DNA from: an uncultured Micrococcales bacterium
Lineage (GTDB): Bacteria > Actinomycetota > Actinomycetes > Actinomycetales > Microbacteriaceae
DNA: 59,147 nt
NCBI GenBank assembly: GCA_903935175.1
Contig: CAIZQQ010000044.1
Coordinates: 1-59,147, forward strand
Direction of reading: 5' to 3'
The position numbers and the translations under genes were made by a program. A model generated the notes under the pieces. The model made no database searches and had not been told where the DNA came from. It was given only the letters and a program-made list of their open reading frames with translations. Below are positions 5,894-31,149 of the stretch, in pieces (position 1 is the stretch's first letter; each line of letters begins with the position of its first letter).

Positions 5894-5952
5894 TTTGCTT
5901 GTCTAGATAACGAAAGTTTTCGGCGCAATGAGTGCCCAATTGGGAGGGTCGC

Positions 5953-6219: not shown

Positions 6220-6343
6220 GCAGCCTTTTTCAGTTAATTTTTTGGAGATCCCCGTCTACATAGGCTAGCCAACACCTACAAAAAGTAGGTGATGGAAAGA
6301 AGCTACATTAAATGCAGGGTCGCTCCCGCATTTCGTCCAAGGT

Positions 6344-11718: not shown

Positions 11719-13395
11719 TTAATTACCCCTAACTAGCTTTTCAATAACCTTTGCTGGCATAACACATACGAGCTCTGCCAGCGATCTAGTGCTTGAAATG
11801 TAGAACGTTTCGCGTGACGATGCCCCATCTTCAAACTCAATCAAGAGAATTGCTGCCGATTCCATACCTTTAAAGGCATGGGCTGTGCCCCAACGTACTT
11901 TTCCTTTTTTCGGCGCTTCAATCGGGGTGGTTTCTAGTTTCAAAGTTGCAACTAGATTCTCAAGCAACTTTTTATTGGAGCTTAGAATCACTATGTCTTC
12001 AAGGGGAAAAGTCTTGGCTAGCCTCGAAAGTTGGGCTTTCGCCTCATCTTCAATCGAATCACCGGCGTTCATGCGGCGCAAAGTAGGCGCGACACCGGCC
12101 TCTGTCCGCCTGTAACTGGAATACAGAGTTGGCTCTTTGAGGATCTGCATGATTGTGTCGCCAATTTCCTTGGTGTTTCTGCAGTTGACATCTAGCGGGC
12201 TAGCTTCGAAGGCGTTTGGAGCTTTTCGCTTCAAGTTTTCCAACGCTAAATCACCCGCGAGGTATATTGCTTGATGCGTGAAATCACCGAAAAAGAACGA
12301 AGGGCTATTTGCAAGACCGTTCTCAAGTGAGAGATCCAGCACATCCAGATATGCATCTAGACAGAGGTCTTGGGCTTCATCGACGATTAGGCAATCGAAC
12401 CTCTCTAAGGGGCCTTGCTCGATGATTGCCGCTTCAGCAAGGGAGGGTAGAGTCTCTCTCCACCAAATTGAGTCGTTCTCATCAAGAGGGGTTTGACCTG
12501 TCAATTGCGTCATATATGAGTGAATGTGGTGAACTTCGACATAGTTGTAGTCAGATAGTTCCTGCTTTAAGTACTTCGCCAACACCTTGTTGAAACAAAC
12601 AAACAATGTTCGGTCGCCTCGCTGGTGCGCGCGTTTTGCCTCGGCGATAGCAATATGGGTTTTCCCAGTGCCTGCCACGCCCGAAATAATCACTGGCGAC
12701 TTCTTACCTTTGACAAGCTCCATGATCAATTTTTGTTCTGCAAGCGCCTGACCGAGTGAAGCATTCAATTCAGCGATTCGCATGTCAGCTGTCTTAGTTA
12801 TCTGGACATCCGGTCGCAAAAACATTGCTATTTCATTGATCTGGGGAACGGAAGCCAATTTCGAAGGATCGACATTGTTCCAGAATCCTCGGAGGTCTAT
12901 CCAGTTGTCCATCACGTTGGAGAGGGACCCTTTGATATCCTTCTTCAGGTCCGAACTGTCGAGGATCATCCAAGGCTTGATTTCAGGAGTCGGGTCGATG
13001 TCCTCTTTTTTCCCGCCCGTTAGCCAAGCGACAAAACCAAATGGAATATCGTGAGTGTTGAGGTTCTGACTCTTTAGATATTTCATGACTGCATACATCG
13101 CGTTGTATGCCTGCTTTATCGGACCCTTCTCTGAAATCTCACCGTTATATCTCCAAACTCCCTTTCTAAACGTGACACTATCGTGACTCTTGACTTCAAC
13201 GAAGATCACGCCTTTGCCAGGTATGAGGACGACCATGTCAGCCTCCCCCTGCCCGGTCGGAATGTCACCGAATATGTCTAGTGAGTGAAGGGCAATCCAA
13301 TTGTCGGCCCCTTTAACGTCACGCAATAGGTTGAAGAGCGCGATTTCCCCTTTGGGAGCAGTCTTGCTTATGAAATCTGGACGCATCTGGACCAT
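11719..13395 (-). CDS. NERD-type nuclease domain fused to SF1 (UvrD-like) helicase
   Basis: N-terminal GEADMVVLIPGKGVIFVEVKS; ISGVAGTGKTHIA; DCLIVDEAQDL; GTAHAFKGMES. Abuts drmA. Confidence 0.85.
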   Translation of the reverse strand: MVQMRPDFISKTAPKGEIALFNLLRDVKGADNWIALHSLDIFGDIPTGQGEADMVVLIPGKGVIFVEVKSHDSVTFRKGVWRYNGEISEKGPIKQAYNAMYAVMKYLKSQNLNTHDIPFGFVAWLTGGKKEDIDPTPEIKPWMILDSSDLKKDIKGSLSNVMDNWIDLRGFWNNVDPSKLASVPQINEIAMFLRPDVQITKTADMRIAELNASLGQALAEQKLIMELVKGKKSPVIISGVAGTGKTHIAIAEAKRAHQRGDRTLFVCFNKVLAKYLKQELSDYNYVEVHHIHSYMTQLTGQTPLDENDSIWWRETLPSLAEAAIIEQGPLERFDCLIVDEAQDLCLDAYLDVLDLSLENGLANSPSFFFGDFTHQAIYLAGDLALENLKRKAPNAFEASPLDVNCRNTKEIGDTIMQILKEPTLYSSYRRTEAGVAPTLRRMNAGDSIEDEAKAQLSRLAKTFPLEDIVILSSNKKLLENLVATLKLETTPIEAPKKGKVRWGTAHAFKGMESAAILLIEFEDGASSRETFYISSTRSLAELVCVMPAKVIEKLVRGN

Positions 13396-13397
13396 AA

Positions 13398-14939
13398 CTA
13401 AACTCTCAAAACTTTCCTAAGTTCATGGGGCTGACATGTCGAAGGCCCCGCATCGGGATCCTCGACCATCGCCAGTATAAACACCGCGTCTCCAAAGCCA
13501 TCCAACTGCTTGGTAACGATCTCCGAATTCCGAATCCGTTCTAGATCGCTCGATGTCACAGCCTCTGCCATGTACCCTCGAGCCTTCTGCCCCACGGCTA
13601 TCAAGTTCGCACGCAAATCAGATCCAAGCGCCTCCAGTCTTGAAATCTCTTGGTCAGTGAAGTTGAGTGCCAGAAGTAAGTTGTGCCAGTCCTTCTTTGC
13701 CCTTGGTGTGGTGAAGTCAACGTTCTCTAACCAATCGTCGAGATAGTTAGCAGTTTTCACTCCCGAAGCCTTTAGTTTTCGAATGACCGCATTTTTACCC
13801 TCGGCTGCGACAAGTTCGGAGACACGTCGCTTCCACTCTGTTCGCCCTTTAGCGAATTCATGGAAGGAGATCCCCATTGAAATCTGCGCTTGGTCCATTA
13901 AGAAGTCTTCCTCCGCACCATCCCTCAATTCAAAGAGGATGTCCCCTACCTCAAGACTCTTGCCTGGAATCCTGTACTGCACAACTAGATCCCCATCTTC
14001 ACCGGTTGACAGAACACTGACTTTTTTTGCCTGAGCTTCAACAGGCATTATGTAACCTTTGGCAAGCTTTACAACCCGGCAGTCCAATGAGCCTCCGCCA
14101 GAATAAGTTTCGTAGTCCAGTTGTTGTGGACCGTCTTGAAAGGCCTCAAAGATCTCATTTTCAAGTTCTACGCTGCCGAGCAATAGCACTGGTCCAACCA
14201 CCGTGAACACAGGTTTTTTTACGCCAGGTAATCCCGGCACTAAGTCCTGAACGACCTTCTGGGGTTCGTGGCCAGCTAGCCAATTTGCACAAAGGAACTT
14301 CGCTTTGGAGGTGGCGCCCCCCAGCAATAGCGCCCGCATGTAGTTGTCTGATAAACGTTTTGGTGCGGCGAGAATCAAAACTTGTTCGTAAACACTGGTG
14401 TCAAGGCGAAAGAAGCTTTGCAATTGAACGATGTCTACAGCGTCTACATCTGTGTGCAAAGAAACAAAATGGCCAACAGAAGCTCGCTGTCTATCTTTTT
14501 CAGTGACAATAAGCGTTCGTTTACCAAATAGATGTGAAGAAAGTGCGTCACTAAAGTGCTCATCAGATTCCCTAAGAGTTTCCAGAGATCGCCTTAGCGA
14601 GAGCGCCGAGTCCCTCGCTTCACTTCCAAGCGCGTGCGCAGAACTCGCAATCTGATAGTTCAATTCTTCGATTCGGCTATCCCAGTGGAGTTTGGCGTCA
14701 TGACTCGGGGCTAGGTAACCTCTCAAGTCCCAGTGAATATGGGCTAACAAAGAACCAAGGTTGGGCAACACTAGACCGTCGATATTGAGACTCTTCTGGA
14801 TTCTTCCGAGGTGGTGGAAAGCCTCTTGCCTCGCCTTATCTTCAAATGTCAAGACTTGGATGGACTGCTGGTCCCACAACGCAGCGAGATTCGCGAATCG
14901 CTTTTCGATTGCTTTTATGTCCATCACACCCACCCCCAA
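13398..14939 (-). CDS. uncharacterised defence-operon protein; possible DrmE-like/degenerate Rossmann-helicase fold
   Basis: 513 aa, co-directional, 2-nt gap to the NERD-helicase. Segment RTLIVTEKDRQRASVG..EQVLILAAPKRLSDNYMRALLLGGATSKAKFLCANWLAG resembles an inactive helicase-like fold. DrmE relation is a guess. Confidence 0.6.
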   Translation of the reverse strand: MGVGVMDIKAIEKRFANLAALWDQQSIQVLTFEDKARQEAFHHLGRIQKSLNIDGLVLPNLGSLLAHIHWDLRGYLAPSHDAKLHWDSRIEELNYQIASSAHALGSEARDSALSLRRSLETLRESDEHFSDALSSHLFGKRTLIVTEKDRQRASVGHFVSLHTDVDAVDIVQLQSFFRLDTSVYEQVLILAAPKRLSDNYMRALLLGGATSKAKFLCANWLAGHEPQKVVQDLVPGLPGVKKPVFTVVGPVLLLGSVELENEIFEAFQDGPQQLDYETYSGGGSLDCRVVKLAKGYIMPVEAQAKKVSVLSTGEDGDLVVQYRIPGKSLEVGDILFELRDGAEEDFLMDQAQISMGISFHEFAKGRTEWKRRVSELVAAEGKNAVIRKLKASGVKTANYLDDWLENVDFTTPRAKKDWHNLLLALNFTDQEISRLEALGSDLRANLIAVGQKARGYMAEAVTSSDLERIRNSEIVTKQLDGFGDAVFILAMVEDPDAGPSTCQPHELRKVLRV

Positions 14940-17346: not shown

Positions 17347-17820
17347 ATGGCAAATTTACTAGAACTTAAGGACCGTGTGGGTCGGTACCTTCGCGAGTCT
17401 TATAGCGATGTTCGTCTAGCAAACGGAGTGGATGGTTACGCTGTCCCCTTTGATAACTTCTCGATCACTGTCTACGTGAGTGAAATGACGGACCCAAAAT
17501 TTCTGCAGTTCGCAGAGGAAAATGACCTGCCCCTCACTCGAGTTTTTGTCAGATCTTGGGTCTCTAAGGACATCCAACCTTCTGCAGATTTCTACAAGTT
17601 CATGGCCGAGGAGTTAACTGGGAAGCTGTCGCTACAGGTTGGAGTGGCAGATGATAAAGAAGCCGGTACAAAGGTGGCTTATGTCTACTGTGTGATTCCA
17701 GGTGACACTATCGATCCAAACGAACTTAAATGGGCGGTCCATTCCGTCCTTTGGGAGAGCAATACTATGGGCACGGCATTGAAAGAAAAATTCGGTGCTA
17801 AGTGGATGTTCGAGGGTTGA
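17347..17820 (+). CDS. YbjN/TY-Chap-like putative peptide-binding chaperone domain protein
   Basis: 157 aa; overall YbjN/T3SS-chaperone-like alpha+beta pattern; precedes and overlaps the AAA+ gene. Confidence 0.55.
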   Translation: MANLLELKDRVGRYLRESYSDVRLANGVDGYAVPFDNFSITVYVSEMTDPKFLQFAEENDLPLTRVFVRSWVSKDIQPSADFYKFMAEELTGKLSLQVGVADDKEAGTKVAYVYCVIPGDTIDPNELKWAVHSVLWESNTMGTALKEKFGAKWMFEG

Positions 17821-19069
17821 AATTAACCGTTCTCAAATCACCGACCGGGTGCTCCAAGAGGCGAAGCGGCGCAATAGAAATCCAGCACAAGTTATAGATG
17901 TTCTTTACGTCGCTATCAAGCAACTTGAACTCTCTGGCGATGCCAAAACGACATGGAACGAAAATCTAGCCACACTTGAACAGAACAGTACCTGGGCGCG
18001 GGGTGATGGAAACGTCTCCGTGGGCGATGAGGCCAACGAAGCAATATCTATACTCCTAGAAAAAGAGGGTGACGAAAAGGTCCTTGATGAACTTCTGGCG
18101 CTGGCACAAAACTCCGCCGATTCATCCGCGCCGACGAGCAGCCCATCTGCTAGACAAGCCACTGATCCCAAGCCTAAGGTCGAGAAGTCAGAGCCAGAGC
18201 TTGAGAAAGTACTCGAAGAAGCTTCGAAAACTCTAGAAGCTTGCTTGGCCGAACTTGATTCACTCGTGGGCTTGGCAGAGGTGAAGAATCAAATCAAGTT
18301 GCTGATTGCAACTCACCAAGTCAACGAGGAGCGAATCAAAGCAGGGCTCAAGACTGTCACACCTGGCAACAATTTGGTCTTCTCTGGTGAACCAGGCACC
18401 GGAAAAACAACGGTCGCTCGAATAGTTTCAGAAATTTACCGTTCCATCGGTCTTTTAGAAAAAGGGCACTTGATAGAAGCCGGCAAGTCTGACCTAGTTG
18501 GAGAGTACGTGGGGCAGACTGCACCCAAAGTCAAAGATATTGTCAAAAAAGCCCTCAACGGCACCTTGTTCATAGACGAGGCCTATTCGCTTAACGAAGG
18601 ACGTCTTGGTGGCTACGGCGAAGAGGCGGTCGCCACGCTGCTTCAAGAAATGGAAAACAACCGCAAAAAACTCGCCGTGATAGTTGCCGGCTACAGCGAA
18701 GAAATGGACCTTTTCATAAAAAGCAACCCCGGATTACGTTCGCGTTTTAACACTGTGATCGACTTTCCAAGCTACTCCCCTGAGGATCTAACGGAGATCT
18801 TCAGAAGGATGGCAGACTCTCACGACATCAAACTAGGAAAGGGTGTCGAAGAAAAGCTCATTCAACATTTCAAGTCTGTTGATACATCTGGGGCTGCTGG
18901 AAATGGTCGCTATGTTCGCAAATTGTTTGAGCGTATGAACAACAACCTTAGCCAGCGTGCGGTGGCCGATGGCGTCATCGAGCTCAAGGAGATAACGGCT
19001 TTCGTGCCTGAAGATGTGCCAGACAATCTAGATTCGCAGCCTAAAAACAAACAGCGAATCGGCTTTTAG
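17795..19069 (+). CDS. CbbX/CfxQ-family AAA+ ATPase
   Basis: SGEPGTGKTTVARIV Walker A, LFIDEAYSL Walker B, GLRSRF arginine-finger region. Exact start uncertain. Confidence 0.88.
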   Translation: MLSGCSRVEINRSQITDRVLQEAKRRNRNPAQVIDVLYVAIKQLELSGDAKTTWNENLATLEQNSTWARGDGNVSVGDEANEAISILLEKEGDEKVLDELLALAQNSADSSAPTSSPSARQATDPKPKVEKSEPELEKVLEEASKTLEACLAELDSLVGLAEVKNQIKLLIATHQVNEERIKAGLKTVTPGNNLVFSGEPGTGKTTVARIVSEIYRSIGLLEKGHLIEAGKSDLVGEYVGQTAPKVKDIVKKALNGTLFIDEAYSLNEGRLGGYGEEAVATLLQEMENNRKKLAVIVAGYSEEMDLFIKSNPGLRSRFNTVIDFPSYSPEDLTEIFRRMADSHDIKLGKGVEEKLIQHFKSVDTSGAAGNGRYVRKLFERMNNNLSQRAVADGVIELKEITAFVPEDVPDNLDSQPKNKQRIGF

Positions 19070-19090: not shown

Positions 19091-19345
19091 CTACTTCACC
19101 CGCACCTTGCCACACGTGAACATCAGCACCGTGTGCTGGCACGACCGGTTGAATATCACTAGTTCGTTGCGGGGTGCGGCTTTTGCCTTGGCCGCGTGAA
19201 TCTCGCAGATGTTCTCAGATGCCCGGCACCGCGAGCAGACCAAAAGATGCGTTCGGGGCAACTCACAGCTGTCGTACTCGCACCGCTCTTCATTCTCTTG
19301 CTCGAGAATCGTGAACAGCTCTTGATCAAGGCCGACGTCGTTCAT
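19091..19345 (-). CDS. small Cys/His-rich protein
   Basis: 84 aa; C-x4-C, C-x2-C, C-x2-H arrangement suggests metal binding; last gene of the long minus-strand operon, overlaps the upstream gene. Confidence 0.55.
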   Translation of the reverse strand: MNDVGLDQELFTILEQENEERCEYDSCELPRTHLLVCSRCRASENICEIHAAKAKAAPRNELVIFNRSCQHTVLMFTCGKVRVK

Positions 19346-19917
19346 GCGTGGCTCTCATCGTCAGGCTTCACGAGGCTGCCAACGGGGATGCTGAACACTC
19401 GCCGTTTAGCGTTCTTCTCGTTCGCATCGTGTCGATCGAGCAGGCCTAGGCCGTCGATTTCGTCTTCAATTCCTTTTGTCGGGCCGAAGAAAAAGTTGTC
19501 GGCAATGTCTAGCTGGTACGCCATCACTAACGCAGCCACGACTTCATCGGCGATTTGAGCAAAATCTGTCAGCGGCGAGAAGTCACGCGAAACATTAGGC
19601 AGGCCACCGAAGCCGTTCTCGTCGAGAAACTCTTCGGCGGTGACTGTTGGGGTCGACCATCCGAGTATTTGAAGTTTGATGAGGTCGTCTTGTGTTAGCG
19701 GCGGGTCACAAACTACGTTTCCGGAAATCTCGACGTGAATCAGGTCGCCGGAAGCGTCGAAGAAGACTCCTGGCGAGCGCGTTGCCTTGCGATTGCTCAC
19801 CTGTCGATAGGTGTAGAACTCCGCTGAGTGGAGCGCTATCACTCGGTGGATGAGGTGGACGATTACCTGTTTGAGCGGGTTCCACTCTTTGCCTGCGAGG
19901 TCGCGGTGTTTTTCCAA
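19342..19917 (-). CDS. TY-Chap-like protein (paralogue of 22103-22687)
   Basis: Shares V/MEISGN..P.L......GW..P.VT..E......N.......F..FG..K by eye with the 22103-22687 product. Confidence 0.65.
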   Translation of the reverse strand: MEKHRDLAGKEWNPLKQVIVHLIHRVIALHSAEFYTYRQVSNRKATRSPGVFFDASGDLIHVEISGNVVCDPPLTQDDLIKLQILGWSTPTVTAEEFLDENGFGGLPNVSRDFSPLTDFAQIADEVVAALVMAYQLDIADNFFFGPTKGIEDEIDGLGLLDRHDANEKNAKRRVFSIPVGSLVKPDDESHA

Positions 19918-20523
19918 CTACTCCCCCAGCTTTTTGTGCTTTCGAGCAAACTCCTCAACCACAGTTGCTTCTAGCAGCCCTTTAGTGCAGAAAAACTGAA
20001 GAACGCTGAGCCAAGTCGGGAATTCACCATCACGCAGCTCTAAAGGGTCGGCTTCACCAAAATGAATGTGCTTACCCTTGAAATCTCGTGCGCCATTCGC
20101 CAGACGATCGTCGATCAAATAAGCCCCAGCATTGCGGTGTTTGTTGTGCGAGAGAATTAGGCGCTTGTAAAGGTGGTTCTCACGCTCGGGATGTTTTTCG
20201 TCTCTGATGCCTGTGTCAAATTTGTCATGAACCCACTTGAGCTTGTCAGACCAGGCGCTCGGGTTGTTCCAAGGTGCGGTGGAGAGCAGGTAAACGTCAA
20301 GTTTCGTTGACTGCGTGAGCGCGATTACTGCGTCAATCGAATCTGGGTATGGATCCATGAGAGAAAAGATCCCTGGCGCATCATCGATCCCTTTACGCTT
20401 GCCGTCAATTTCTGGAAATTGCGCCAGCAGTTCGGAAGGGAGTTTTTCAATCCCTGTAACAAAGTCAACAACCACGTTGTCCATGTCGATGTAAACGATT
20501 TCCTTTTCACGATTCTCAATCAT
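19918..20523 (-). CDS. 5' nucleotidase, NT5C/deoxyribonucleotidase family (HAD)
   Basis: IVYIDMDNVVVDF HAD motif I, LLSTAPWNNPSAWSDKLKWV, LIDDRLANG. Confidence 0.85.
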   Translation of the reverse strand: MIENREKEIVYIDMDNVVVDFVTGIEKLPSELLAQFPEIDGKRKGIDDAPGIFSLMDPYPDSIDAVIALTQSTKLDVYLLSTAPWNNPSAWSDKLKWVHDKFDTGIRDEKHPERENHLYKRLILSHNKHRNAGAYLIDDRLANGARDFKGKHIHFGEADPLELRDGEFPTWLSVLQFFCTKGLLEATVVEEFARKHKKLGE

Positions 20524-21248
20524 TTAGTCTCCTCACTTTTGGTCTCGTTTTTTACAACTTCCTGATGGATTTTCTCCACACTTCGCATCCCCTCGATAGC
20601 CCACGCTTGAGCTTCGTTTTTGTCGAGGAATCTCCGGCTGTCTCCAGATATTCGAGTGTTTGGGTCGTCGCCGGGCAGCCAATAGGCGGCCCAATAGGCC
20701 GGGCCTGCGACAAAACTAACTCGGCCGTAAGCGTGGCCGGTTGGATTTTCCTGATGTTGATAGGTGCGCCTCGACCCGTCATCTAAGAAATAGAAGCCCT
20801 CGGGCAGTTTCTCAGGCGCTACGAAAACTTGAAAGTCTGTGCTTGCAATTTCCTTGTCCCGGCGAATCTTGCGCCGTTTAGCTTCCATGCGCTTATCGAC
20901 TTTAGCGACCACCGTAATACAGCCAGGAATTAACTTCGATGCAGTTTCAGGCGTGAGGTCTTCTGTTTCCAAAACCTCATCGTCCAACCACCAATAATCC
21001 TCACGCCAAAAGGTTGGGCCGTGCAGTGAGGGAACCCAATAGAGGAAATCCTTGCTCCAGTGAAGCCAGCGTGCGGTCTCGGCGTGGCGCAACCAAAGTC
21101 CGCGATCGCGTTCGTACTCGCAAATGCGAACGTGCACGAATCTGCAGGCATCATCGAGGCTTAGAGTCTCGAATTCGAGAGCAGGTGAGTTCGTGTTGTT
21201 GGGCGAGCCATCAGACTTAGCCATTTGAATCACTCTCCTTCTGAACAA
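20520..21248 (-). CDS. uncharacterised protein
   Basis: 242 aa, overlaps both neighbours (ATGA-type junctions); Trp/Tyr-rich, no recognised family. Internal start at MAKSDG possible. Confidence 0.65.
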   Translation of the reverse strand: MFRRRVIQMAKSDGSPNNTNSPALEFETLSLDDACRFVHVRICEYERDRGLWLRHAETARWLHWSKDFLYWVPSLHGPTFWREDYWWLDDEVLETEDLTPETASKLIPGCITVVAKVDKRMEAKRRKIRRDKEIASTDFQVFVAPEKLPEGFYFLDDGSRRTYQHQENPTGHAYGRVSFVAGPAYWAAYWLPGDDPNTRISGDSRRFLDKNEAQAWAIEGMRSVEKIHQEVVKNETKSEETK

Positions 21249-22050
21249 TCGGAAACGCTTGAGGGAAATCTTGCTTCGCTACCCCTAGCGAGATGATGTC
21301 AAAATCGAACTCCCCTTTGATCATTAGCTCGCCCATTCGATAAGTGGGTTCCCAAAGCAAAGTTGACTTATTGAACCACCACTGCGACCAGGCGCCATCC
21401 ATGCAAAATAGTGCCAGATACTTACCAGGGCCATCACCTCGAGCTCCAAATCGAAGCAGCCTCTCGTCGGTGATGGTACCTTGCTCGGCAGGTTCGTTGG
21501 TGCGGAAATCGAAAAAGATGCGCTCGTCTTTCGATAAGTCGAAGACTTCGAAGGCTTGGATGTACCTGCTGGCATTGCGCTTACCCCCGGCATCCTCTAC
21601 CCAAAGCACACGTTGCTTATTCGAGTTGTCGGTGATGTCGGCGATCTTGACCATGCGAGCCAGTGGGTCTGCCTTGATTCGGGCGTAATAGATGTCGTTG
21701 GTCACATCGTCTTTGCGGGTAAGCAGTTCTGCGATCTCGGCTGCGCGCTCGCTGACGCCCCAGCTAACCAGATCGGCCTGGGTCACTTTCGGCCAAGCTT
21801 CATCGCCGGAATCTTCGATAACGTCGTGTAGCCAAGAGGCGGCAACCGCATCGGCCTGTTCTTGTGAGGGAAGGTGATCGAAACCGGGCAACTGCTGCAC
21901 GTTCTCGGCCACACGACGAGGGTGGTCGATGTAAGCACGCCCAGCTTTATCAACTTGGATGCGGTGCACGAGCTCAGCGATTCGCCGAGGTCTATCGACT
22001 ACCGGTTGTAGGAGCAGCTTCTCGATTTCTAACTTCTGATCGATCTTCAT
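21217..22050 (-). CDS. HD-domain hydrolase, RelA/SpoT-like metal-dependent phosphohydrolase
   Basis: DHPRRVAENV..AVAASWLHDVIEDSGDEAW..KIADITDN, the HD-hydrolase signature as in SpoT-type enzymes. Confidence 0.8.
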   Translation of the reverse strand: MKIDQKLEIEKLLLQPVVDRPRRIAELVHRIQVDKAGRAYIDHPRRVAENVQQLPGFDHLPSQEQADAVAASWLHDVIEDSGDEAWPKVTQADLVSWGVSERAAEIAELLTRKDDVTNDIYYARIKADPLARMVKIADITDNSNKQRVLWVEDAGGKRNASRYIQAFEVFDLSKDERIFFDFRTNEPAEQGTITDERLLRFGARGDGPGKYLALFCMDGAWSQWWFNKSTLLWEPTYRMGELMIKGEFDFDIISLGVAKQDFPQAFPIVQKESDSNG

Positions 22051-22102
22051 GCCATCTCCTTACATTTTTAGGTTAGGTGTTACCACCGACATTTATGTGC
22101 CT

Positions 22103-22687
22103 CTATATAGAAGCCTCTGACGACTGTCTTGGCTCACACATGTCTTCGTGCCGACCGGGCAGCGCAAAGATTTCTCGGTCAGGGTTTCCCTCTGAATACT
22201 TGAGACGAGATAACTTCTTCAAACCTTCGACGTAATCGGCCTTGGCCTTAGTCGAGAACCCCCAGAAATCATCCTCGACCATGTCGAAAACGCCCACGAG
22301 CGTCACAAGCAGAAACTCGGCGATGTCGACCGGGTCGTCGGTCGGCTCATAGAAGCGCACGAAGTTGGGGTTCGAACCGCCACCACTCTCGCGGTATTCG
22401 GCCTCGGTAACCTCCGGGCGCGTCCAGCCATAAAACTCGAGCTCGACATACTCGGCCTCACTCAGCTTGGGTTCGAGTTGCAGATTGCCCGAAAGCTCCA
22501 TCTGAACCCTGCCACCATCGACCTTGATTGCCTGAAAATATGGCGAGGTGTAGGGGCTCAGTGAGAAACGGCGGATGTACGTTTGAACGCTAAACATGTT
22601 CCCCCGTCTCACATCTTCGAGCAAGCGAATGAGAACGTGACCGATCGGCTCCCACTGCGGGCCAAGTAGTGGATTAGTCGCAATCAC
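22103..22687 (-). CDS. TY-Chap-like protein (paralogue of 19342-19917)
   Basis: MELSGNLQLEPKLSEAEYVELEFYGWTRPEVTEAEY and downstream similarity to the second paralogue. Confidence 0.65.
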   Translation of the reverse strand: MIATNPLLGPQWEPIGHVLIRLLEDVRRGNMFSVQTYIRRFSLSPYTSPYFQAIKVDGGRVQMELSGNLQLEPKLSEAEYVELEFYGWTRPEVTEAEYRESGGGSNPNFVRFYEPTDDPVDIAEFLLVTLVGVFDMVEDDFWGFSTKAKADYVEGLKKLSRLKYSEGNPDREIFALPGRHEDMCEPRQSSEASI

Positions 22688-23604
22688 TAGCTACGAAGCA
22701 CCTGATCAGCAACCACGACGAGAGTCTTCTCGCGATGGGCTTGCACAGAGCTTCTGTACCACGCAACAACAACCAGCTCGAGCAACTCGTCTAGGTCGAA
22801 CTGGTGCAGCCAACGTTCTAGCGCAAACGAATCGCCATCGCCGTGTTGTAGAAATGGGTCTGGAAACTTTTGCCAAAGCTTGTCGCAATTCTTCAGTGCA
22901 CGCTTGCGTCTGGCCGACAGCTCACTAAGTGTGAGACCTTCGGTGTCGTATAGGTGCAACGGGCCACCGTTCCAGAGCTCACCTTGGCGCAAAAGTCGTT
23001 GCAACTCTGCTTCGACCGCCAGGTGCTGCGCTTGCGGGATATTAAAACCGACGTTCCCGTTCTCTCGAGCGAGAAATGCCAGAATCAGGTCGTCGGCTTC
23101 GGCCTTACCCGGTTCGAGGTAGGCGTTGCGAATTGAGCTATCTAGGCTCTCTAAGCTTGCTCGCTGCTCAAAAGGTCGCGAGAAGATTCTTGGTCTGATA
23201 ACCGTGCGCTTTGGCTTGTAGCCATAGCGCTGGCAAAGGTCGGTGTATGGCGCAACCTCTCGCTCAAGAGCCGGAATCAGCTTCTCGTCAACCGGCCCAG
23301 AGATTGGGTAAGGCAACATGGGCAGAAGCTCCTCACCATCCCTGATGTAGAACTCACCCTTGTCGCCGCAAGGGCGAACCATCGCGTACTTATAGTCGAG
23401 TGAAACCAACAGGTGACAATTTTTAAGGTCTCCTCTGAGCCACTCGTCGAAATTGCGCATCGAATCGGCATCGACGTAACACTCGCCCAGGTAAACCAGG
23501 GGGTAGTACTCACGCAAGGAGCACTCGATAACAAAGAACGAGTCTTTGCGGGATCGACCTCGAACCTCGTGCCGAACTCCGATTGCTATTGATTTACATT
23601 CCAA
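22687..23604 (-). CDS. uncharacterised protein
   Basis: 305 aa, overlaps the downstream gene; KAEADDLILAFLAREN is weakly reminiscent of a PIN/FEN-type acidic motif; not assigned. Confidence 0.6.
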   Translation of the reverse strand: MECKSIAIGVRHEVRGRSRKDSFFVIECSLREYYPLVYLGECYVDADSMRNFDEWLRGDLKNCHLLVSLDYKYAMVRPCGDKGEFYIRDGEELLPMLPYPISGPVDEKLIPALEREVAPYTDLCQRYGYKPKRTVIRPRIFSRPFEQRASLESLDSSIRNAYLEPGKAEADDLILAFLARENGNVGFNIPQAQHLAVEAELQRLLRQGELWNGGPLHLYDTEGLTLSELSARRKRALKNCDKLWQKFPDPFLQHGDGDSFALERWLHQFDLDELLELVVVAWYRSSVQAHREKTLVVVADQVLRS

Positions 23605-23631
23605 TGCTGTTTCCTTCCGTTCGTTCCATTA

Positions 23632-24198
23632 TTAGGCGGCGTTGTTGAGAACGCCAGCCCTCCAAAAGTCGACATCAGCCGTCTCAAGTAGCCAACGCTC
23701 GAAAATCGAGTTGGAAAGTGCATGAGAGCAGCGATTTGCGCGAATCAGGTCGATCGCTTCTTCGGGTGAATAACCATCGCGAATCAGAACCAACGCGGTG
23801 ACCAGACCTGAACGGTTCCAGCCGGCTTGGCAACGGATGAGCACACGCTTGCCTTCCTTCCAGTCGCGGTGGGCCTCACGCACCAAAAAGGCGAGGTCGC
23901 GCTCTGGTGAAAAGTCGGTCATGTCGCCGTCATCGAAACCAAAACGCACTTCTTTAACCCGCCACGACACTCCGTTGGCTCGCGCGTAAAGCGTATAAAC
24001 CGAATCGAAGTTCGTGCGAGTGATGCGGCAAGCTCCAGCTTCGGCGATTGCCTTGCGCTCGAAGTATCCGAGAGAAGCTCCCGAGCGCGAATCGGCCAAC
24101 GGGTGGTAGCCGACCACGTCGGTGTCATCTGTGCCGCCCTGCCAAAGACCTGCAACAATCTCTGACCAAAGCGGATCTATTCTGTAGCCGTTGCACAT
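23632..24198 (-). CDS. dual-specificity/rhodanese-associated phosphatase-like protein
   Basis: VLIRCQAGWNRSGLVTALVLIRDGYSPEEAIDLIR, a Cx5R(S/T) Cys-phosphatase loop. Confidence 0.82.
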   Translation of the reverse strand: MCNGYRIDPLWSEIVAGLWQGGTDDTDVVGYHPLADSRSGASLGYFERKAIAEAGACRITRTNFDSVYTLYARANGVSWRVKEVRFGFDDGDMTDFSPERDLAFLVREAHRDWKEGKRVLIRCQAGWNRSGLVTALVLIRDGYSPEEAIDLIRANRCSHALSNSIFERWLLETADVDFWRAGVLNNAA

Positions 24199-24199
24199 G

Positions 24200-25171
24200 T
24201 TAGTTTCTCCTATCTGTAGTGCAAACCGTGTTGTAAATCTCCTCCACCACGAGAGCCCAGGTTTCTGGGGTCTCCTTCAGTGGTTGATAGCCACCCGCGC
24301 CGCCAATAATCACACGGCCCTGCGCATAAGCGTTTGCCTTTTGTGCGATCATCTGCGCGGCGTAACGGTAACCCTTCCCGGTGTAGTTGGCGAGCTGGCC
24401 TAGATTGCCCGAGCCAGTGTGACCATCAGCACCTGCAGCAAGCAAGATGACATCCGGTTGATATTTGTCGATGATGTCTGCGGCAGCGTCGATGCACGCC
24501 ATGAAAACTTCATCATTCGCACCGTGTTCAACATTGAAGTTGTATTGATGCTTCTCTGGGTTGTGCAGTTCACCAGCGACGCCGGTCTGCATCGTCGAAT
24601 CCGCCGGATAGCCCGAAGCTAGGTGAATCGAAATGCAAGGAATACCCGAAGCCTCGAGCAGGTGCATCACGCCGTCGCCAGCGTGAATGTCCCAGTCGAT
24701 GTAGAGCACCTTCAGGCCCTGCGCTTGCAAGAGCAAGGCTGCGGCAGCCATGTCGTTGAAAACACAGAAACCAGAACCGGATGCGCGACGCGCATGGTGT
24801 TTTGCCCCTTGCGGGTTGAAAACAACAAGAGCTTCGCCCGTGAGTAACGCCTCAACGGCACGCATTGTGCCACCAAACATGGCGCAACCGGCAGCTGCCA
24901 CCGACGGCTTGTTTTCGTACCATTCGCCATTGGTGCCGGCTAGCGTTCTCGAAACGTAATTGCCATCGTGAACGAGTAGCATCGCACGCTTGTCAGTTTC
25001 TACCTTGTCGGCAGGTTGAGGGTGAATGACCCGGACGCGCTCGCCAAGGCGCTTCTTTAGAAGCGCGGTCGCCAATTGGGCGCGCACCGGATTGGTTGGG
25101 TGAGAGCCATCGCCCTTTCCCAAAAGCCAATCCAGATATAGGTCATCGTAGGTGACTAGAAGTTGTTTCAT
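24200..25171 (-). CDS. HDAC/AcuC/acetylpolyamine amidohydrolase-family deacetylase
   Basis: NPQGAKHHARRASGSGFCVFNDMAAAA, LYIDWDIHAGDGVMHL, LAAGADGHTGSGNLGQL metal-site motifs. Confidence 0.9.
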   Translation of the reverse strand: MKQLLVTYDDLYLDWLLGKGDGSHPTNPVRAQLATALLKKRLGERVRVIHPQPADKVETDKRAMLLVHDGNYVSRTLAGTNGEWYENKPSVAAAGCAMFGGTMRAVEALLTGEALVVFNPQGAKHHARRASGSGFCVFNDMAAAALLLQAQGLKVLYIDWDIHAGDGVMHLLEASGIPCISIHLASGYPADSTMQTGVAGELHNPEKHQYNFNVEHGANDEVFMACIDAAADIIDKYQPDVILLAAGADGHTGSGNLGQLANYTGKGYRYAAQMIAQKANAYAQGRVIIGGAGGYQPLKETPETWALVVEEIYNTVCTTDRRN

Positions 25172-25177
25172 GTTGGT

Positions 25178-25606
25178 TTACTCTTTCTCCGATTTCTCGG
25201 TCGTTGCTAGGGTTTCGGAAGTAATCGCTTCGGTTTGTCGAATGCGATCGTCGAGCTCTGCGTCGGTGAGCGGTTCACGCGCACCTTCGTCTTCGACGGC
25301 GAGCATCGCTGCCCAGACGCCGTGCAGAGCATCCGTGAATTCATAGCCGCGGGTTTTGCCAACTCGCGACTTGAAGTTTGAATACTTGAGCTCGCCTCCG
25401 CGGTCGAGGAACCATTCGAGGAAAGGCCCGTCGGTCACGAAAACTCGGTAGGGGTAATCGCCCTCTGGCGATCGTTTGATCTCGACGCCCGCCTTTGCAG
25501 CGAGCAACTCGAGTGAATGGCGATCGCGAGCACGCACGGTTAGCACTCCAGGGTGCTCTGGCTTGCGAACGATCGAGATGAATCCGGTATCAGTAAAAAT
25601 CCACAT
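25178..25606 (-). CDS. small conserved-looking hypothetical protein
   Basis: Start reassigned to MWIFTDTGFISIV at 25606, preceded by AAAGGA at suitable spacing; listed upstream start (25645) less likely. Confidence 0.65.
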   Translation of the reverse strand: MWIFTDTGFISIVRKPEHPGVLTVRARDRHSLELLAAKAGVEIKRSPEGDYPYRVFVTDGPFLEWFLDRGGELKYSNFKSRVGKTRGYEFTDALHGVWAAMLAVEDEGAREPLTDAELDDRIRQTEAITSETLATTEKSEKE

Positions 25607-25761
25607 AGGGCAGGTGTCCTTTCTAGACGTAAGTTTTTGTGGCAATGCGAGTTTTCGTGAGGGTGCAGCAAAGCAGGCTTGAGGTTGCGGCGGCAGGTTT
25701 AGTTCTGCTGAGGCAGGTTTAGGCCAGGGCTAAGTGCTTAGGCAATGACGGGCAAGGTGTC

Positions 25762-25804
25762 TCGGCGGCCGCCGGCGAAAGGGGTGAAAAACGGCGGCCG
25801 CCGA
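25762..25804. repeat. 12-bp perfect inverted repeat in an intercistronic gap
   Basis: TCGGCGGCCGCC-19 nt-GGCGGCCGCCGA between the vWA gene and the 25178-25606 gene. Confidence 0.8.
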
Positions 25805-25816
25805 ACCTTGTCTGCG

Positions 25817-27160
25817 CTAGATCTCTTCGTTGTCGCCGGTCTTGGGGCGACGCTCTCTGAAGTTCGTCTTGTCGCGCATCACGCGGTTGCTGGTTTCGCG
25901 CATGCGCTTCGACTTCACGCCGTCATCCATCATGGCGAACGAGGACATCTCGCTGGTGTGACGGAAGAGACGAGCCTGCTGGCGGGCAGACAGGTTCGCG
26001 TTGCGAGCCCATTGTTCGAGCGCAACTCCGGCTTCGGTCAACATGGCGTCGGCCTCGGCAAAAGCGCCTCGGTCGTAGAGGTCTTGAGCCGCGCGACGCA
26101 CGTCTTCGAGACGCAGCGCCTTTAGCTCGGCCACGATGTCTTCATCGCGAGCCGGCTCGACCCAGTTGTCCTTGTCGACCAGTTCGAGCGTGATGCGCTT
26201 TTCACCGGTGACCAAGTCGCCTGAGACGAGGTCGGTGTACTGCCAGCGAACGATGATTCCCTCGACTTCGCGAAGCTCGATCTCTGGGTCGCGCAGCGCA
26301 AGCGTCGCGTCGAACACCCAGTTCTTCTCTTCGGCGGTCGAAAGGTCGCCCAGTTCGGCAACGGCGAGCGGAGCATCCCAGTTGAATCGACGAACCCAGC
26401 CACCCTTGCGAACACGAGAACCAGGGCCGGCGACCTCGCGGGCGAGCTCGATTTCTACGCGCAGACCCGAAACGGTCTTCTGCAGCATGTCTTCGATCTC
26501 GGCGTTGAGTGCGTCAACGGCCTCGTCGATGCGAATGGCAGCAACGTGGTTTCCGGCACCGGCACCAGCGACCGCATCGAGGATGCGCTCGTCGTAACCC
26601 TCACCGATTCCGATGGTGGTTGTGGTGATGAAGTGCTCGGTTGCGGCAGCCGCTAGCTGGCCAAGCGACTCTGGGTCTTGGTTACCCGAGTTTGCCTGAC
26701 CGTCTGACAGCAGAATGACCGCGGCCTCGATGCCTTCGGGTGCCGAAGCAGCCTCGGCTAGGCCGAAACGGTAACCGGCCTCGAGGTTGGTCGAGCCACC
26801 CGGCTGCAAGTTCGACACCAGGCGGCGAAGCGCTGCCATGTCGGTGTCGCCGATGCGAACCAGCGGCTGGTCGGTGATGGCAACGTCGTCAAACGTCACC
26901 ACCGAGATGTAGTCGGCTGGGTTTAGGCGGCCGAGAATGTCAAGAATGGTGCCCTTGACGAGCTCGAGTCGCCCGCCGCCCATCGAACCCGAACGGTCGA
27001 CGACGAAAACGATCGCCTTGTCTTTGCGAACGATTTCTTCGGTGCGAGCTGGCGCGGTCGGGGCGGTTGCCTCGACCATGATGCCGATCGAGGTCGGCTC
27101 TGCGCCCTCACGGCCCTTAACTAAGTTGTGTTCAAATTTGATTTCAATCACGTCTATCAC
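25817..27160 (-). CDS. vWA-domain protein
   Basis: VFVVDRSGSMGGGRLELVKG MIDAS motif, LLSDGQANSG. Confidence 0.9.
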   Translation of the reverse strand: MIDVIEIKFEHNLVKGREGAEPTSIGIMVEATAPTAPARTEEIVRKDKAIVFVVDRSGSMGGGRLELVKGTILDILGRLNPADYISVVTFDDVAITDQPLVRIGDTDMAALRRLVSNLQPGGSTNLEAGYRFGLAEAASAPEGIEAAVILLSDGQANSGNQDPESLGQLAAAATEHFITTTTIGIGEGYDERILDAVAGAGAGNHVAAIRIDEAVDALNAEIEDMLQKTVSGLRVEIELAREVAGPGSRVRKGGWVRRFNWDAPLAVAELGDLSTAEEKNWVFDATLALRDPEIELREVEGIIVRWQYTDLVSGDLVTGEKRITLELVDKDNWVEPARDEDIVAELKALRLEDVRRAAQDLYDRGAFAEADAMLTEAGVALEQWARNANLSARQQARLFRHTSEMSSFAMMDDGVKSKRMRETSNRVMRDKTNFRERRPKTGDNEEI

Positions 27161-27273
27161 GTCCTTTCGAAGACTCTTATTTGGTGCTGCTTTGAAATCT
27201 GGGTGGATGCTGACGCGAACCTTGCGGTGCGCATCCGTGTTGGCTAACTGGGTTTGCCTCGTCGGCCCCGGCG

Positions 27274-28299
27274 TTATGCGGCCAACACCAACTCGTGAGC
27301 GGCGTTGAGCGCCGACATGTGCAGCAGGGATCCGTCGCGCAGCACACCTTCGGCGGCTACGAAGCGGTCTGGCTTGTTGCGCAGGCAGCCGTCTGACTGA
27401 ACCTGGTCTAGACCGAGACGCTCGATGCGCTCGACAAAATCGCGAGCCAGCTGCGAACGGCAGACCTTGTAGGCCTTGGTTAGCGACTCTGGCAGGTAAG
27501 CATCGAGGATGCTCTCCAACCGCTCGGCGAGAGTGTCGGGGTGATCGAACACTTCGATGGCTAGCGGCGAACCGGCGATTGCCACGAGCACACCGCGCTG
27601 ACCGTAGATCGGTTCAGGCTTTTCGAGCTTGAGCGCTGCGATTTCGGCCTCGATCTCGACGCGCATTTCGACTAGCGACTCGGTTGGGCGCACCTTGTTG
27701 TTGCGCATGCCGAATTCGCGAACCTTGTTCCAAACTTCGCCCTGATCGGCCATGGCCTGGTGAACGGTGCCGTTCGATGCCTTCTGCATTCCGCGAATAG
27801 CTGAGCGAACTCCGGCTGGTGCACGGCGACCGCCGAGCTTTTGAGTGGCCACGCCACCCCAGCGACCTGCTTCGACGCAGACGACTGGCAGTGCGGTGGT
27901 AACTCCGGCCCCGACTAGCACGGTGCGGGTAAGTGCTCGGTGCTGCCATCCGCCTTCAAGAAGTGTGCCTTCAAGAAGCAGAACCGGCTGGCCGAGTTCG
28001 TTTTTGACGTTTAGTGTGCCAACCGACGGAACATCGCCCTCGACAACGGCAACCTTGCCGCCGGTCTCGGTGACATAGTCGCGGGTTTTGACAGGGGCAT
28101 CTGTGAAGATTGGAAACCAGGTGAGGTTGCCGTAGCGCTGACCGCGACCTAGGTGCATGGTTGGCAGTTGCTTCATGACCTTGGTTGAAGCTGGCTTGGC
28201 GGTGCGCACGGCACGGCCGGTCTTGGCGTCGGCAATGACATCGGCGATTGGCTTCTGGCCTCGCAGGCTGTCTGCCCAGTTGTTGAACTCTTGGTTCAT
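27274..28299 (-). CDS. ARPP-1-like protein (ARG and rhodanese-phosphatase associated)
   Basis: Start reassigned to MNQEFNNWADSL at 28299 (AAGGA RBS). ..PVLLLEGTLLEGGWQHRALTRTVLVG..LPVVCVEAGRW resembles the ARPP-1 family. Confidence 0.7.
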   Translation of the reverse strand: MNQEFNNWADSLRGQKPIADVIADAKTGRAVRTAKPASTKVMKQLPTMHLGRGQRYGNLTWFPIFTDAPVKTRDYVTETGGKVAVVEGDVPSVGTLNVKNELGQPVLLLEGTLLEGGWQHRALTRTVLVGAGVTTALPVVCVEAGRWGGVATQKLGGRRAPAGVRSAIRGMQKASNGTVHQAMADQGEVWNKVREFGMRNNKVRPTESLVEMRVEIEAEIAALKLEKPEPIYGQRGVLVAIAGSPLAIEVFDHPDTLAERLESILDAYLPESLTKAYKVCRSQLARDFVERIERLGLDQVQSDGCLRNKPDRFVAAEGVLRDGSLLHMSALNAAHELVLAA

Positions 28300-28337
28300 A
28301 CGATCACATCCTTCGGTTGGAGAAGTACCATAACACA

Positions 28338-28361
28338 AATAGTTTTTATGAGCAAACTATT
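28338..28361. promoter_or_regulatory. perfect inverted repeat in the ARPP-1/NrtR-like divergent promoter; candidate NrtR-like operator
   Basis: AATAGTTT-ttatgagc-AAACTATT. Confidence 0.65.
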
Positions 28362-28409
28362 CCCGACAAATGGCGTGTCGCTGTGTTTCTGGTGTTTCTA
28401 ATGTAGATT

Positions 28410-29318
28410 ATGAACATGACCACCGACATTTATTCTGACAAGGCCCTCGACCTAGTGATTTTCACCGTCGTCGACGAGGCGACACTTAGGTCGAAAGTTT
28501 GGGATGACGAGCTCATCTCACCCAGCTATGCCGGCCAAAAGGGCAGCTACGGGCTTTCGCTGTTTGCCGTCACCGTGCCGGCCGACACCGCTCTATACCC
28601 GCTCGCCAGTGGGCAGCGCGTGCTGCCCGGCGGCTACCTCGGCAAGAGTGAATCGCTCGAACAAGCCAGCCACCGCATCGCCCAAGATCGACTCGGCCTT
28701 TCGCTCAAAACGAAGATTCGGCAACTGGGCATCTTCGACGACCCCAAGCGCGACCCCAACGACCGCGTGCTTTCGTTCGCCTACTGGGGCATGGTCAATT
28801 TCGAAGACATCCGCAAATTCTTAGGCGGCAAAGAGCGCGTCGGCCTCGAGCTGATCTGTTCACAACTTTTCATGGACAAGTTCGAGCGCGAAAACGGCAC
28901 GCTAGACAAGTTCGACGGCGTCTCTCGCTTCGGCAATCGAAAGATGCCGGATGCTAAGCGCAAGGTCGGGCACGACAAAACTCTCACGAGCCAAACCAAG
29001 AGCGGGCGCATCCTAGGTTTAGACCACGACGACATGGTGTTCTATGCGTGGAGGCAGCTGCGCCATGCGTTTGACGGTCGCCTCGATCCGTTTCGCTACC
29101 TCGGCATCAACCCGCTCGGCGAAGAGTTTCGCTTGAGCGATCTGCAAGAGTTCACCGAGGTTTGCCGCGGCGAGCGCGTTCAACGTGATGCGTTTAGGCG
29201 CATGATGCTGGCCGAAACTTCGTATCTCAGTTCCACCGGCCGCACCGACTCGAAGCGCCCTGGCAAGCCGGCGAATCTCTACGAACTGAGCGCTCCGCCG
29301 CCAGCGCACGAGCAGTAG
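28410..29318 (+). CDS. NrtR-like Nudix-domain transcriptional regulator
   Basis: Nudix-like N-terminus (LPGGYLGKSESLEQASHRIAQDRLGL) plus C-terminal winged-helix-like region (LTDLQEFTEV-type: LSDLQEFTEVCRGERVQRDAFRRMML). Start may be 28416. Confidence 0.8.
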   Translation: MNMTTDIYSDKALDLVIFTVVDEATLRSKVWDDELISPSYAGQKGSYGLSLFAVTVPADTALYPLASGQRVLPGGYLGKSESLEQASHRIAQDRLGLSLKTKIRQLGIFDDPKRDPNDRVLSFAYWGMVNFEDIRKFLGGKERVGLELICSQLFMDKFERENGTLDKFDGVSRFGNRKMPDAKRKVGHDKTLTSQTKSGRILGLDHDDMVFYAWRQLRHAFDGRLDPFRYLGINPLGEEFRLSDLQEFTEVCRGERVQRDAFRRMMLAETSYLSSTGRTDSKRPGKPANLYELSAPPPAHEQ

Positions 29319-29364: not shown

Positions 29365-31149
29365 ATGGTCATCATGATCCCGCAAAAAATCGACAACCAG
29401 AACCCGATTTCTGAGAAGGAAGTTTTTCAGGCTCTGAATTTGATTGGCAATAGGCCAAATTGGATTGTGATTCACGCTCTAAAGCAAGCCCGATCAATCA
29501 AGAATCTGTCCGCAGAGACAGACTTCGTTGTGATTGCCCCGGGTATGGGCATCGTTCTAATCGAGGCCAAAGGGGCAACTGGAGTCAAGATCGAAGGCAA
29601 CTCCTGGAGTATGGAAGGGGTACCTGAGGACGCGAAACATAAGGACCCGCTTGGCCAACTTGATGGGGCCGCGGCAAACATTCGTCGTTACCTGCGAAAA
29701 CAGAAACTTATAGATAACGGCACCCCAGTGACCAGGCTTGTGTGGTTCAACAAACTCTCGGAAGGGAACATTGACGACAGCAAGAAGGACAAGGGAATGG
29801 AGCTGTTTCCCTGGGAACTAGCTTGGCTTGAAAATCTCGAGGATGCCCAGTCCATCATCGAGAGAAACTTGCGCAACCACACAAAAGAACATCCCGAATT
29901 CTGGGGGGCAAAGCTAGACGGCAGCTCACTAACCCCGGACCTGGCAAGCAAGATTGCGGCAGCACTCCGTGTTGACATCGAGGTCACCAGTGACAAAGCG
30001 AGTGAAGCTAAAGCCCGTGCCGTACGGATAAGCCAAGCGACAAAGGAGCAGTTAAAGTGCCTCAGTTTGGTTTCATCCAACCCATATCTCTATTTCGAAG
30101 GTGGTGCCGGCTCTGGCAAGACGCAGTTGGTCATTGAGAGCGCACTCAATTTGGCCTCGCAGGGAAAATCTGTGCTCTTGACCGCGTGGAACAAGATGAT
30201 GGCTGAACGCTTGGAAAGAAGATTTGCTGGGGTGCCTAATGTACACGTCGAAGACGTCGGCTCTATGCTTGCCAGCATCGCGATGCAAGAGCGACCCGCT
30301 GAAGTAAGCAAAGATGACTGGTACGATCGGGAACTCGCAACACTGGCTAGTAAAGAGATAGCCGCCCATCGTGGCCTTGCGTCATTTGACGCTATCTGTA
30401 TTGATGAATTTCAAGACATCGCCACCAAACCAGCGGTTTGCAAAGCAATTTTTTCTCTAATTAAACCTGGCGCAAGCCCCACCATTGTGCTTGCGGGTGA
30501 TGACGAGCAACAAATCATGGCGACTGCATCGAAAGTGAATGCCTTCCAGGCGGCTCAAGCACTCAACCCAGGTTTTATACGTATCACCCTCAACGCAAAC
30601 TGCAGGCAGGCTCCTGAGCTATCTATCGCCGTACACAACTTTCTCGAAATGGATTCGACTCAACTCAATCACCTGGTTCCCTACGGGGGCGAACACAGTT
30701 TTGAAGTGATCCCTACCGATGAAGCGAGCCAACTGAAAGATCTAGCTCGAGTGATAAACCGACTTTTGGAGAGATTTGAGGGCAAAAACATTCGAATACT
30801 CAGCCCATTCGGTGCAAAGAGATCAAGTCTTGCGCTACTTTTTGCAACACCTAGCGATGAAATCCATAGCAAAGAAGTAAAAAAGTTGATGCCTCTTTTG
30901 CGTCATGAATCCAGCCCCGATGGCAAAATCACGTGGCGCTCGATTTCCTCATTCAAGGGATTAGAGGAGGATGTGATTGTGATCGTTGACATCAACGAAG
31001 AGGCAAGAGATTGGCTTGAAGGCGAACGTAAGAGCCTTCGCGAGCAACTTTATGTCGGTATGACTCGTGCTCGGTTCCACCTCTACATGCTGGTGAGCGA
31101 TGGGCTTTACGAGGCAAACACAAACGTTGATGGCTCAGTAATAAAGTAA
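29365..31149 (+). CDS. NERD-type nuclease domain fused to SF1 helicase
   Basis: TDFVVIAPGMGIVLIEAKG; GGAGSGKTQLVIE; ICIDEFQDI; LAGDDEQQI; SFKGLEEDVIVI; YVGMTRAR. Confidence 0.87.
   Translation: MVIMIPQKIDNQNPISEKEVFQALNLIGNRPNWIVIHALKQARSIKNLSAETDFVVIAPGMGIVLIEAKGATGVKIEGNSWSMEGVPEDAKHKDPLGQLDGAAANIRRYLRKQKLIDNGTPVTRLVWFNKLSEGNIDDSKKDKGMELFPWELAWLENLEDAQSIIERNLRNHTKEHPEFWGAKLDGSSLTPDLASKIAAALRVDIEVTSDKASEAKARAVRISQATKEQLKCLSLVSSNPYLYFEGGAGSGKTQLVIESALNLASQGKSVLLTAWNKMMAERLERRFAGVPNVHVEDVGSMLASIAMQERPAEVSKDDWYDRELATLASKEIAAHRGLASFDAICIDEFQDIATKPAVCKAIFSLIKPGASPTIVLAGDDEQQIMATASKVNAFQAAQALNPGFIRITLNANCRQAPELSIAVHNFLEMDSTQLNHLVPYGGEHSFEVIPTDEASQLKDLARVINRLLERFEGKNIRILSPFGAKRSSLALLFATPSDEIHSKEVKKLMPLLRHESSPDGKITWRSISSFKGLEEDVIVIVDINEEARDWLEGERKSLREQLYVGMTRARFHLYMLVSDGLYEANTNVDGSVIK

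Follow-up and report, generated by a model that had tools for sequence, protein, structure and literature searches.

The question raised by the locus described here is what may be accomplished by an operon in which a putative ribose-acting enzyme, a deacetylase of the histone deacetylase (HDAC) fold, several phosphohydrolases and predicted chaperones are encoded opposite a Nudix-type regulator. It lies at positions 19091-29318 of the window, i.e., the whole stretch of 59,147 nucleotides analysed (contig CAIZQQ010000044.1), which belongs to an actinobacterial assembly (1.5 Mb, 228 contigs, 92% complete) whose nearest named relatives are Micrococcales/Microbacteriaceae metagenome-assembled genomes (MAGs), apparently from freshwater. 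Iyer et al. 2022 (PMC9503650, section 3.8) predicted systems that are centred on ADP-ribosylglycohydrolase (ARG) and directed against viral ADP-ribosylation. With a probability that we put at about 0.5, the operon is a new form of such ARG-centric ADP-ribose conflict systems, that is, an inducible "modification eraser" in which an HDAC of viral lineage occupies the slot of ARG.

An ARG-centric architecture without ARG

The operon consists of twelve minus-strand genes running from 28302 to 19091 and facing a 302-aa regulator on the plus strand (28410-29318); the original prediction of twelve co-directional genes divergent from a Nudix-winged-helix regulator was confirmed for all open reading frames and coordinates. 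From the regulator side, the products are ARPP-1, a vWA protein, a 155-aa protein, the HDAC, a dual-specificity-type phosphatase (DSP), a 305-aa protein, a TY-Chap3 protein, an HD phosphohydrolase, a 242-aa protein, a 5'-nucleotidase, a second TY-Chap3 protein and an 84-aa protein. Pfam matches above the cut-off were obtained for ARPP-1 (PF20208, 184 bits), HDAC (PF00850, 164 bits), vWA, DSPc (PF00782), NT5C, one TY-Chap3 and the NrtR winged helix. The genes had also been described as mostly overlapping, which is slightly overstated, even though the packing is tight: from ARPP downwards, the junctions measure 113, 171, 6, 1, 27, -1, 52, -32, -4, 0 and -4 bp, i.e., four out of eleven overlap, five fall at 0-52 bp and two are larger.

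The comparison with other genomes was carried out on draft MAGs, and several operons are broken by contig ends. In the 67 genomes surveyed for the genus, the vWA gene was found in 14, the HDAC gene in eight and the ARPP gene in nine (including one contig-end fragment), and vWA is present in all the HDAC genomes and in eight of the nine ARPP genomes (hypergeometric p ~5e-7 and ~4e-6, respectively). The core is patchy across the genus and its genes co-occur strictly; conservation of the gene neighbourhood, which had been put forward as a check on the prediction, was found in other species with the core genes in the same order. The arrangement NrtR / ARPP-vWA-155-HDAC is shared by the window and by G008, G035 and G064, with G035 continuing as 149 aa-PDDEXK-Macro and G008 showing two HDAC fragments that may be one gene. 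Other genomes contain NrtR / vWA-155-HDAC-DSP-TY-HD-84 (G041), NrtR / vWA-155-HDAC-DSP-322 aa-HD-NT5 (G045), NrtR / vWA-155-HDAC up to the contig end (G030), or the operon genes in a shuffled order (G025), and NrtR / ARPP-vWA-155-Macro is found in G028 and, with one extra 155-like gene, in G007. The gene following HDAC is that of the DSP in 6/8 cases where it is visible. Since the core order recurs in other species, and since HDAC and ARPP co-occur with vWA, the operon is more than a chance assembly. It sits in defence islands with varying neighbours. In the window these are NERD helicases, DrmA/DrmB and a type I restriction-modification system; G008 has DrmA/B, G028 a Druantia-like DruE, G007 a type IIG enzyme, and both G041 and G045 have Mokosh-like helicases resembling MkoA.

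The published parts list of the ARG-centric systems comprises a Nudix-helix-turn-helix (HTH) regulator, an R-P phosphatase, HD, a HAD 5'-nucleotidase, vWA, TY-Chap1-3, ARPP, Macro and helicases (PMC9503650). The operon contains the Nudix-HTH regulator, the DSP, HD and NT5C phosphatases, and vWA, TY-Chap and ARPP; the lack of any Pfam match to an ADP-ribosyltransferase or sirtuin among its proteins agrees with the same template. ADP-ribosylglycohydrolase (PF03747) was found neither among the operon proteins nor in the 92%-complete genome of the window. Since this family is absent from both, the locus would represent, judging from sequence, an ARG-centric kind of system lacking the eponymous enzyme, a variant rather than a member.

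The ARPP loci of related Actinobacteria indicate what may stand in the vacant position. An ARG-DSP protein is encoded beside NrtR/ARPP in 9/12 of them, Macro in 1/12 and a stand-alone DSP in 2/12; within the phylum, L306 and L309 are additional loci with ARG, and Macro is carried by the sister species G007, G028 and G035. Phylum-wide, the ARPP loci mostly belong to a distant ARPP group that lacks the genes of the operon. ARG-DSP, Macro and HDAC-DSP are exchanged next to a common core. In one locus (L024:6532-11897), the ARPP/NrtR pair is flanked by two Macro-domain genes instead of ARG. In G008, an ARG-DSP gene and a relative of the 84-aa protein (L015:3752-5948) are some 5 kb away from the operon of the HDAC type, an arrangement indicating that the ARG-DSP and HDAC versions can coexist on one contig.

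The reading of the locus as an NAD/ADP-ribose conflict system, already proposed in the original prediction, agrees with the template of Iyer et al. 2022 (PMC9503650); the absence of ARG and the virus-associated lineage of the HDAC and DSP had been missed. The accompanying statement that HDACs had previously been tied to NAD/ADP-ribose pathways finds no support in PMC9503650, where HDAC is missing from the parts list and "histone deacetylase" occurs solely in the reference list. As for the suggestion that the set might be undescribed, most parts are already together in that work, and HDAC in place of ARG is new; in comparison with the published template and the open library of literature, the novelty lies in the absence of ARG, with HDAC-DSP in the place of ARG-DSP, and in the virus-associated HDAC subfamily.

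Viral kinship of the deacetylase and phosphatase

The HDAC (24200-25171, minus strand) possesses a complete zinc/His/Tyr active site, whose zinc and proton-relay residues H125, H126, D159, D161, D249 and Y295 are invariant across 26 host and viral sequences, and H163 in the host alignment only. In the DSP (23632-24198, minus strand), the signature C-x2-G-x-N-R is present as RCQAGWNRSG, and R-C-Q-A-G-x-N-R-S-G is kept throughout the alignment except for single substitutions.

Order- and phylum-wide searches in about 680 other actinobacterial genomes gave only AcuC-like proteins, reaching at most 137 bits, and the plasmid matches, among those listed, were AcuC or class II HDACs with less than 30.5% identity. 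The subfamily was instead found on at least 155 viral contigs, with 43-50% identity, the best match in an isolate being gp204 of Microbacterium phage Magritte (37.5%). The viral terminase encoded beside DSP-HDAC shares 79% identity with its counterpart in a Dishui Lake Actinomycetia phage, which places the HDAC-carrying viruses among actinobacterial phages. Moreover, a DSP of the operon type (42-57% identity to the operon DSP) occurs in 69/80 of the fetched HDAC viral contigs: in 47 it directly precedes HDAC on the same strand, and in 22 it lies about 2.5-3.8 kb off, across the terminase gene and on the other strand. Next to DSP-HDAC, a viral protein of about 190 aa that appears by eye to be HslV/proteasome-like (an Ntn hydrolase), with no Pfam match, is encoded at L127:6619-7197 and on 44 other contigs; phage DSL-LC01 (L294) has an annotated HslV gene close to the same terminase.

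In a phylogenetic tree rooted with AcuC, the outgroup is separated from the virus/host HDAC group at 100/100, and a single clade (99/97), nested in the viral sequences, unites the host HDACs; monophyly of the viral HDACs was rejected by the approximately unbiased (AU) test with p-AU 0.02-0.03, a modest value, the host clade having been named after the tree had been seen. The simplest reading of these sequences is a virus-to-host transfer of the HDAC and, probably, also of its DSP partner. That the HDAC could be a housekeeping AcuC is ruled out by the score gap and by the tree; a polyamine enzyme is still conceivable, even if the top 60 hits of the profile search include no acetylpolyamine amidohydrolase (APAH). 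A viral origin of the whole operon is argued against by the finding of no viral relatives for vWA, ARPP, NT5 and the 305-aa protein in single-sequence scans, whose sensitivity is below that of the alignment-based scans run with HDAC and DSP; the HD protein has distant viral relatives only. The annotations of Magritte over 1-124 kb include no gene named for NAD or ADP-ribose.

The profile of the HDAC is closest to that of HDAC6, a lysine deacetylase, and the DSP matches protein Tyr/Ser phosphatases. Together with the travelling of the DSP-HDAC pair in viruses without ARPP relatives (by single-sequence scan), this might point to a more general eraser of protein modifications, not specific for ADP-ribose, in which HDAC would act on lysine acetylation, DSP on phosphorylation, and ARPP and the chaperones on damaged proteins, thus reversing changes imposed by phages or defence toxins, with phages carrying DSP-HDAC for the mirror purpose. 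This explanation is doubtful: the NrtR-type sensor, the HD protein and the 5'-nucleotidase all indicate nucleotides, as does the fact that relatives have ARG-DSP as the counterpart, and the similarity of folds does not settle the substrate.

Besides the modest AU value, several points weigh against the operon being an ARG-centric variant with a viral HDAC. The DSP tree agrees with the HDAC tree and is weakly supported. The DSP is found on 213 viral contigs, and HDAC lies within 4 kb of it in 28 of the best 80; since the DSP is commoner than HDAC in these viruses, their co-presence is partly background, and the independence of the viral pairing is weakened by the DSP being common there without HDAC, so that adjacency and the pairing in the host are the informative part of the association. 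Since the operon encodes no known ADP-ribose deconjugase (ARG/Macro), the link to ADP-ribose rests on NrtR, ARPP and resemblance, and the parent ARG-centric systems are themselves predictions. Finally, PADLOC models gave no convincing match for any operon protein or for the regulator.

Remaining components and neighbouring genes

ARPP-1 (27274-28302, minus strand), a putative ribose-acting enzyme for which the ATG at 28302 is preferred as start over the TTG at 28338, shows one invariant cysteine (Cys142) and several invariant glutamines. The vWA protein (25817-27160, minus strand) is a predicted chaperone whose MIDAS residues are kept (DxSGS...T...D). The following 155-aa core protein (25178-25645, minus strand) is conserved within the operons of at least nine species; its AlphaFold model has a pLDDT of 81, and a PDB fold search with the model gave no match below E 0.1. 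In a distant actinobacterium, a relative of this protein adjoins ARPP, NrtR and a 912-aa ARG protein (L306:4185-9158), a neighbourhood indicating that the 155-aa family belongs to ARG systems too. The two TY-Chap3 proteins (PF22552; both on the minus strand), predicted chaperones of which copy A would bind peptides, lie on the two sides of the Pfam cut-off of 27, with 28.2 bits for copy A (22103-22687) and 26.9 for copy B (19342-19917).

The HD phosphohydrolase (21217-22050, minus strand) is of the MESH1/(p)ppApp-hydrolase kind. It is sub-threshold in Pfam (16.1 vs 22), with an orthologue (L051) that passes; its best solved relative is the (p)ppApp hydrolase 7smg (E=1.6e-8), and the RelA/SpoT-type residues H43, H75-D76, E79-D80, D138 and N142 are invariant in four relatives. 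The HAD-type 5'-nucleotidase NT5C (19918-20523, minus strand) keeps its DxD motif. A natural single-protein fusion of NT5C and HD (L020:11164-12141, genome G072), beside NrtR, ARPP and ARG-DSP, is evidence that both act in one pathway. The likeness to a (p)ppApp hydrolase and the existence of NT5C and NT5-HD fusions would also suit a metabolic or stress operon for the salvage of adenosine nucleotides or polyamines, to which the defence neighbours would be incidental, as would the fact that HDAC-fold enzymes include polyamine deacetylases, reported for giant viruses among the viruses of eukaryotes (PMC9992855). Such a role is improbable for an operon present in just 14/67 species of the genus, whose modules vary and whose defence neighbours differ from genome to genome, and it would leave no obvious role for the chaperones and ARPP.

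The 84-aa protein (19091-19345, minus strand), found near the operon in four other species, is rich in Cys and His and probably binds zinc, with C22, C27, H33, C37, C40, C47, H50, C69, H71 and C78 invariant in five copies. The 305-aa (22687-23604) and 242-aa (20520-21248) proteins, both on the minus strand, had been listed as unknowns in the original prediction: the former has one weak homologue (30%), located at the equivalent operon position in G045, and a structure model of low confidence (pLDDT 48), and the latter gave no match in Pfam, NCBIfam, PHROG, PADLOC or PDB. That either might be a hidden ARG is unsupported, given the lack of family or PDB matches and the confidence of the 305-aa model.

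The defence island of the window (17-14939) opens with type I restriction-modification genes (approximately 17-5893), followed by DISARM-like DrmB (6344-8236) and DrmA (8236-11718), a NERD-helicase (11719-13395) and a 513-aa protein (13398-14939) with no Pfam or PADLOC match. A CbxX/SpoVK-type AAA ATPase (IetA-like, 17795-19069) is convergent with the end of the operon, and a relative of it adjoins DSP-HDAC and DrmB/DrmA in the sister genome G008 (L053:6715-8907). A second helicase, of the NERD-UvrD type (29365-31149), directly follows the regulator and has a homologue in the G008 island.

Regulation, proposed mechanism and comparison with known systems

The regulator combines a Nudix half below the Pfam cut-off (16 vs 21) with an NrtR winged helix (PF21906, 40 bits), and its solved relatives, AraR 5bs6 (the closest in PDB) and 3gz5, indicate a Nudix fold joined to a winged helix, as in NrtR. 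The catalytic glutamates of the Nudix box are lost in 12/12 relatives compared, with the fold being kept; the protein would therefore fit a ligand sensor rather than an enzyme. Between the regulator and ARPP, a perfect palindrome, AATAGTTT-N8-AAACTATT, occupies positions 28338-28361, immediately upstream of a -10-like TATGGT hexamer (28327-28332, minus strand). G030 has the same two arms, and in most of ten aligned species the left half-site AATA(A/G)TTTGC is largely kept. Arms of 8 bp were reached in 47/2000 shuffles of the control region (~2%), so that the palindrome on its own is a candidate operator of moderate strength and its conservation is the stronger argument. In Mycobacterium smegmatis, the NrtR site has 8-bp arms and a 7-nt spacer, acetylation of NrtR at K134 is needed for repression, and blocking acetylation derepresses nrtR (PMC6800001). 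By analogy with this precedent, and given that the HDAC gene lies inside an NrtR-divergent operon in the genus, the HDAC might deacetylate NrtR and so lock the operon on after induction; this is very improbable in view of the related NrtR/ARPP operons without HDAC and of the viral stretches fetched, in which HDAC occurs but NrtR does not.

Starting from gene order, active sites, co-conservation, ARG loss, defence-island setting and viral kinship, which are directly seen, a mechanism can be proposed for the ARG-centric variant, whose ligand, repression, substrates and anti-viral effect we infer. The NrtR-like repressor would keep the operon off until a rise of ADP-ribose-type molecules, due to viral protein ADP-ribosylation or NAD breakdown, turned it on. 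ARPP might then act on ribose adducts. Dephosphorylation, either of modified proteins or of the adenosine nucleotides set free, would fall to the DSP, HD and 5'-nucleotidase, and the holding of modified targets to vWA and both TY-Chap3 proteins; the released nucleotides would be recycled. The HDAC, whose step is the least certain, may deacylate either protein lysine or an acyl-ADP-ribose product; the former is favoured by the profile nearest to HDAC6, and the latter would fit the ARG/Macro counterparts in related operons.

A more specific proposal, which we advance only tentatively, is that an ADP-ribose-sensing operon swapped ARG for a virus-captured deacetylase-phosphatase pair, and that phage and host both use the same HDAC to strip proteins, or an ADP-ribose derivative, of an acyl mark. 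If true, this would reveal an acylation arm of the phage-host conflict: the HDAC being common to a host operon and to frequent freshwater actinobacterial viruses, acylation of proteins or nucleotides may be an overlooked battleground. The locus would offer a compact and testable example, with predicted operator, sensor and enzymes, of the reversal of virus-imposed modifications, and the exchange of HDAC-DSP for ARG-DSP narrows the possible targets of both pairs.

With the ARG-centric systems, the operon has in common the Nudix-HTH regulator, ARPP, the R-P (DSP) phosphatase, HD, the 5'-nucleotidase, vWA, TY-Chap3 and variable modules; unlike them, it lacks ADP-ribosylglycohydrolase, has HDAC beside DSP, and includes an additional 155-aa core protein and the 84-, 242- and 305-aa proteins. 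The HDAC shares the fold and the full set of catalytic residues with the HDAC/AcuC superfamily and with acetylpolyamine amidohydrolases, whereas it differs from AcuC in belonging to a separate, virus-associated clade, with about 29% identity to plasmid AcuC proteins. Freshwater actinobacterial viruses contain the same HDAC and DSP subfamilies, often adjacent, with DSP preceding HDAC close to the terminase gene and without the rest of the operon. As for NrtR and AraR, the regulator likewise joins a degenerate Nudix domain to a winged helix and is divergent from its operon, with a candidate palindrome of 8-bp arms and an 8-nt spacer; however, its NCBIfam NtrR score is only 28.6 against a cut-off of 400, and it adjoins a conflict-type operon rather than NAD or arabinose genes.

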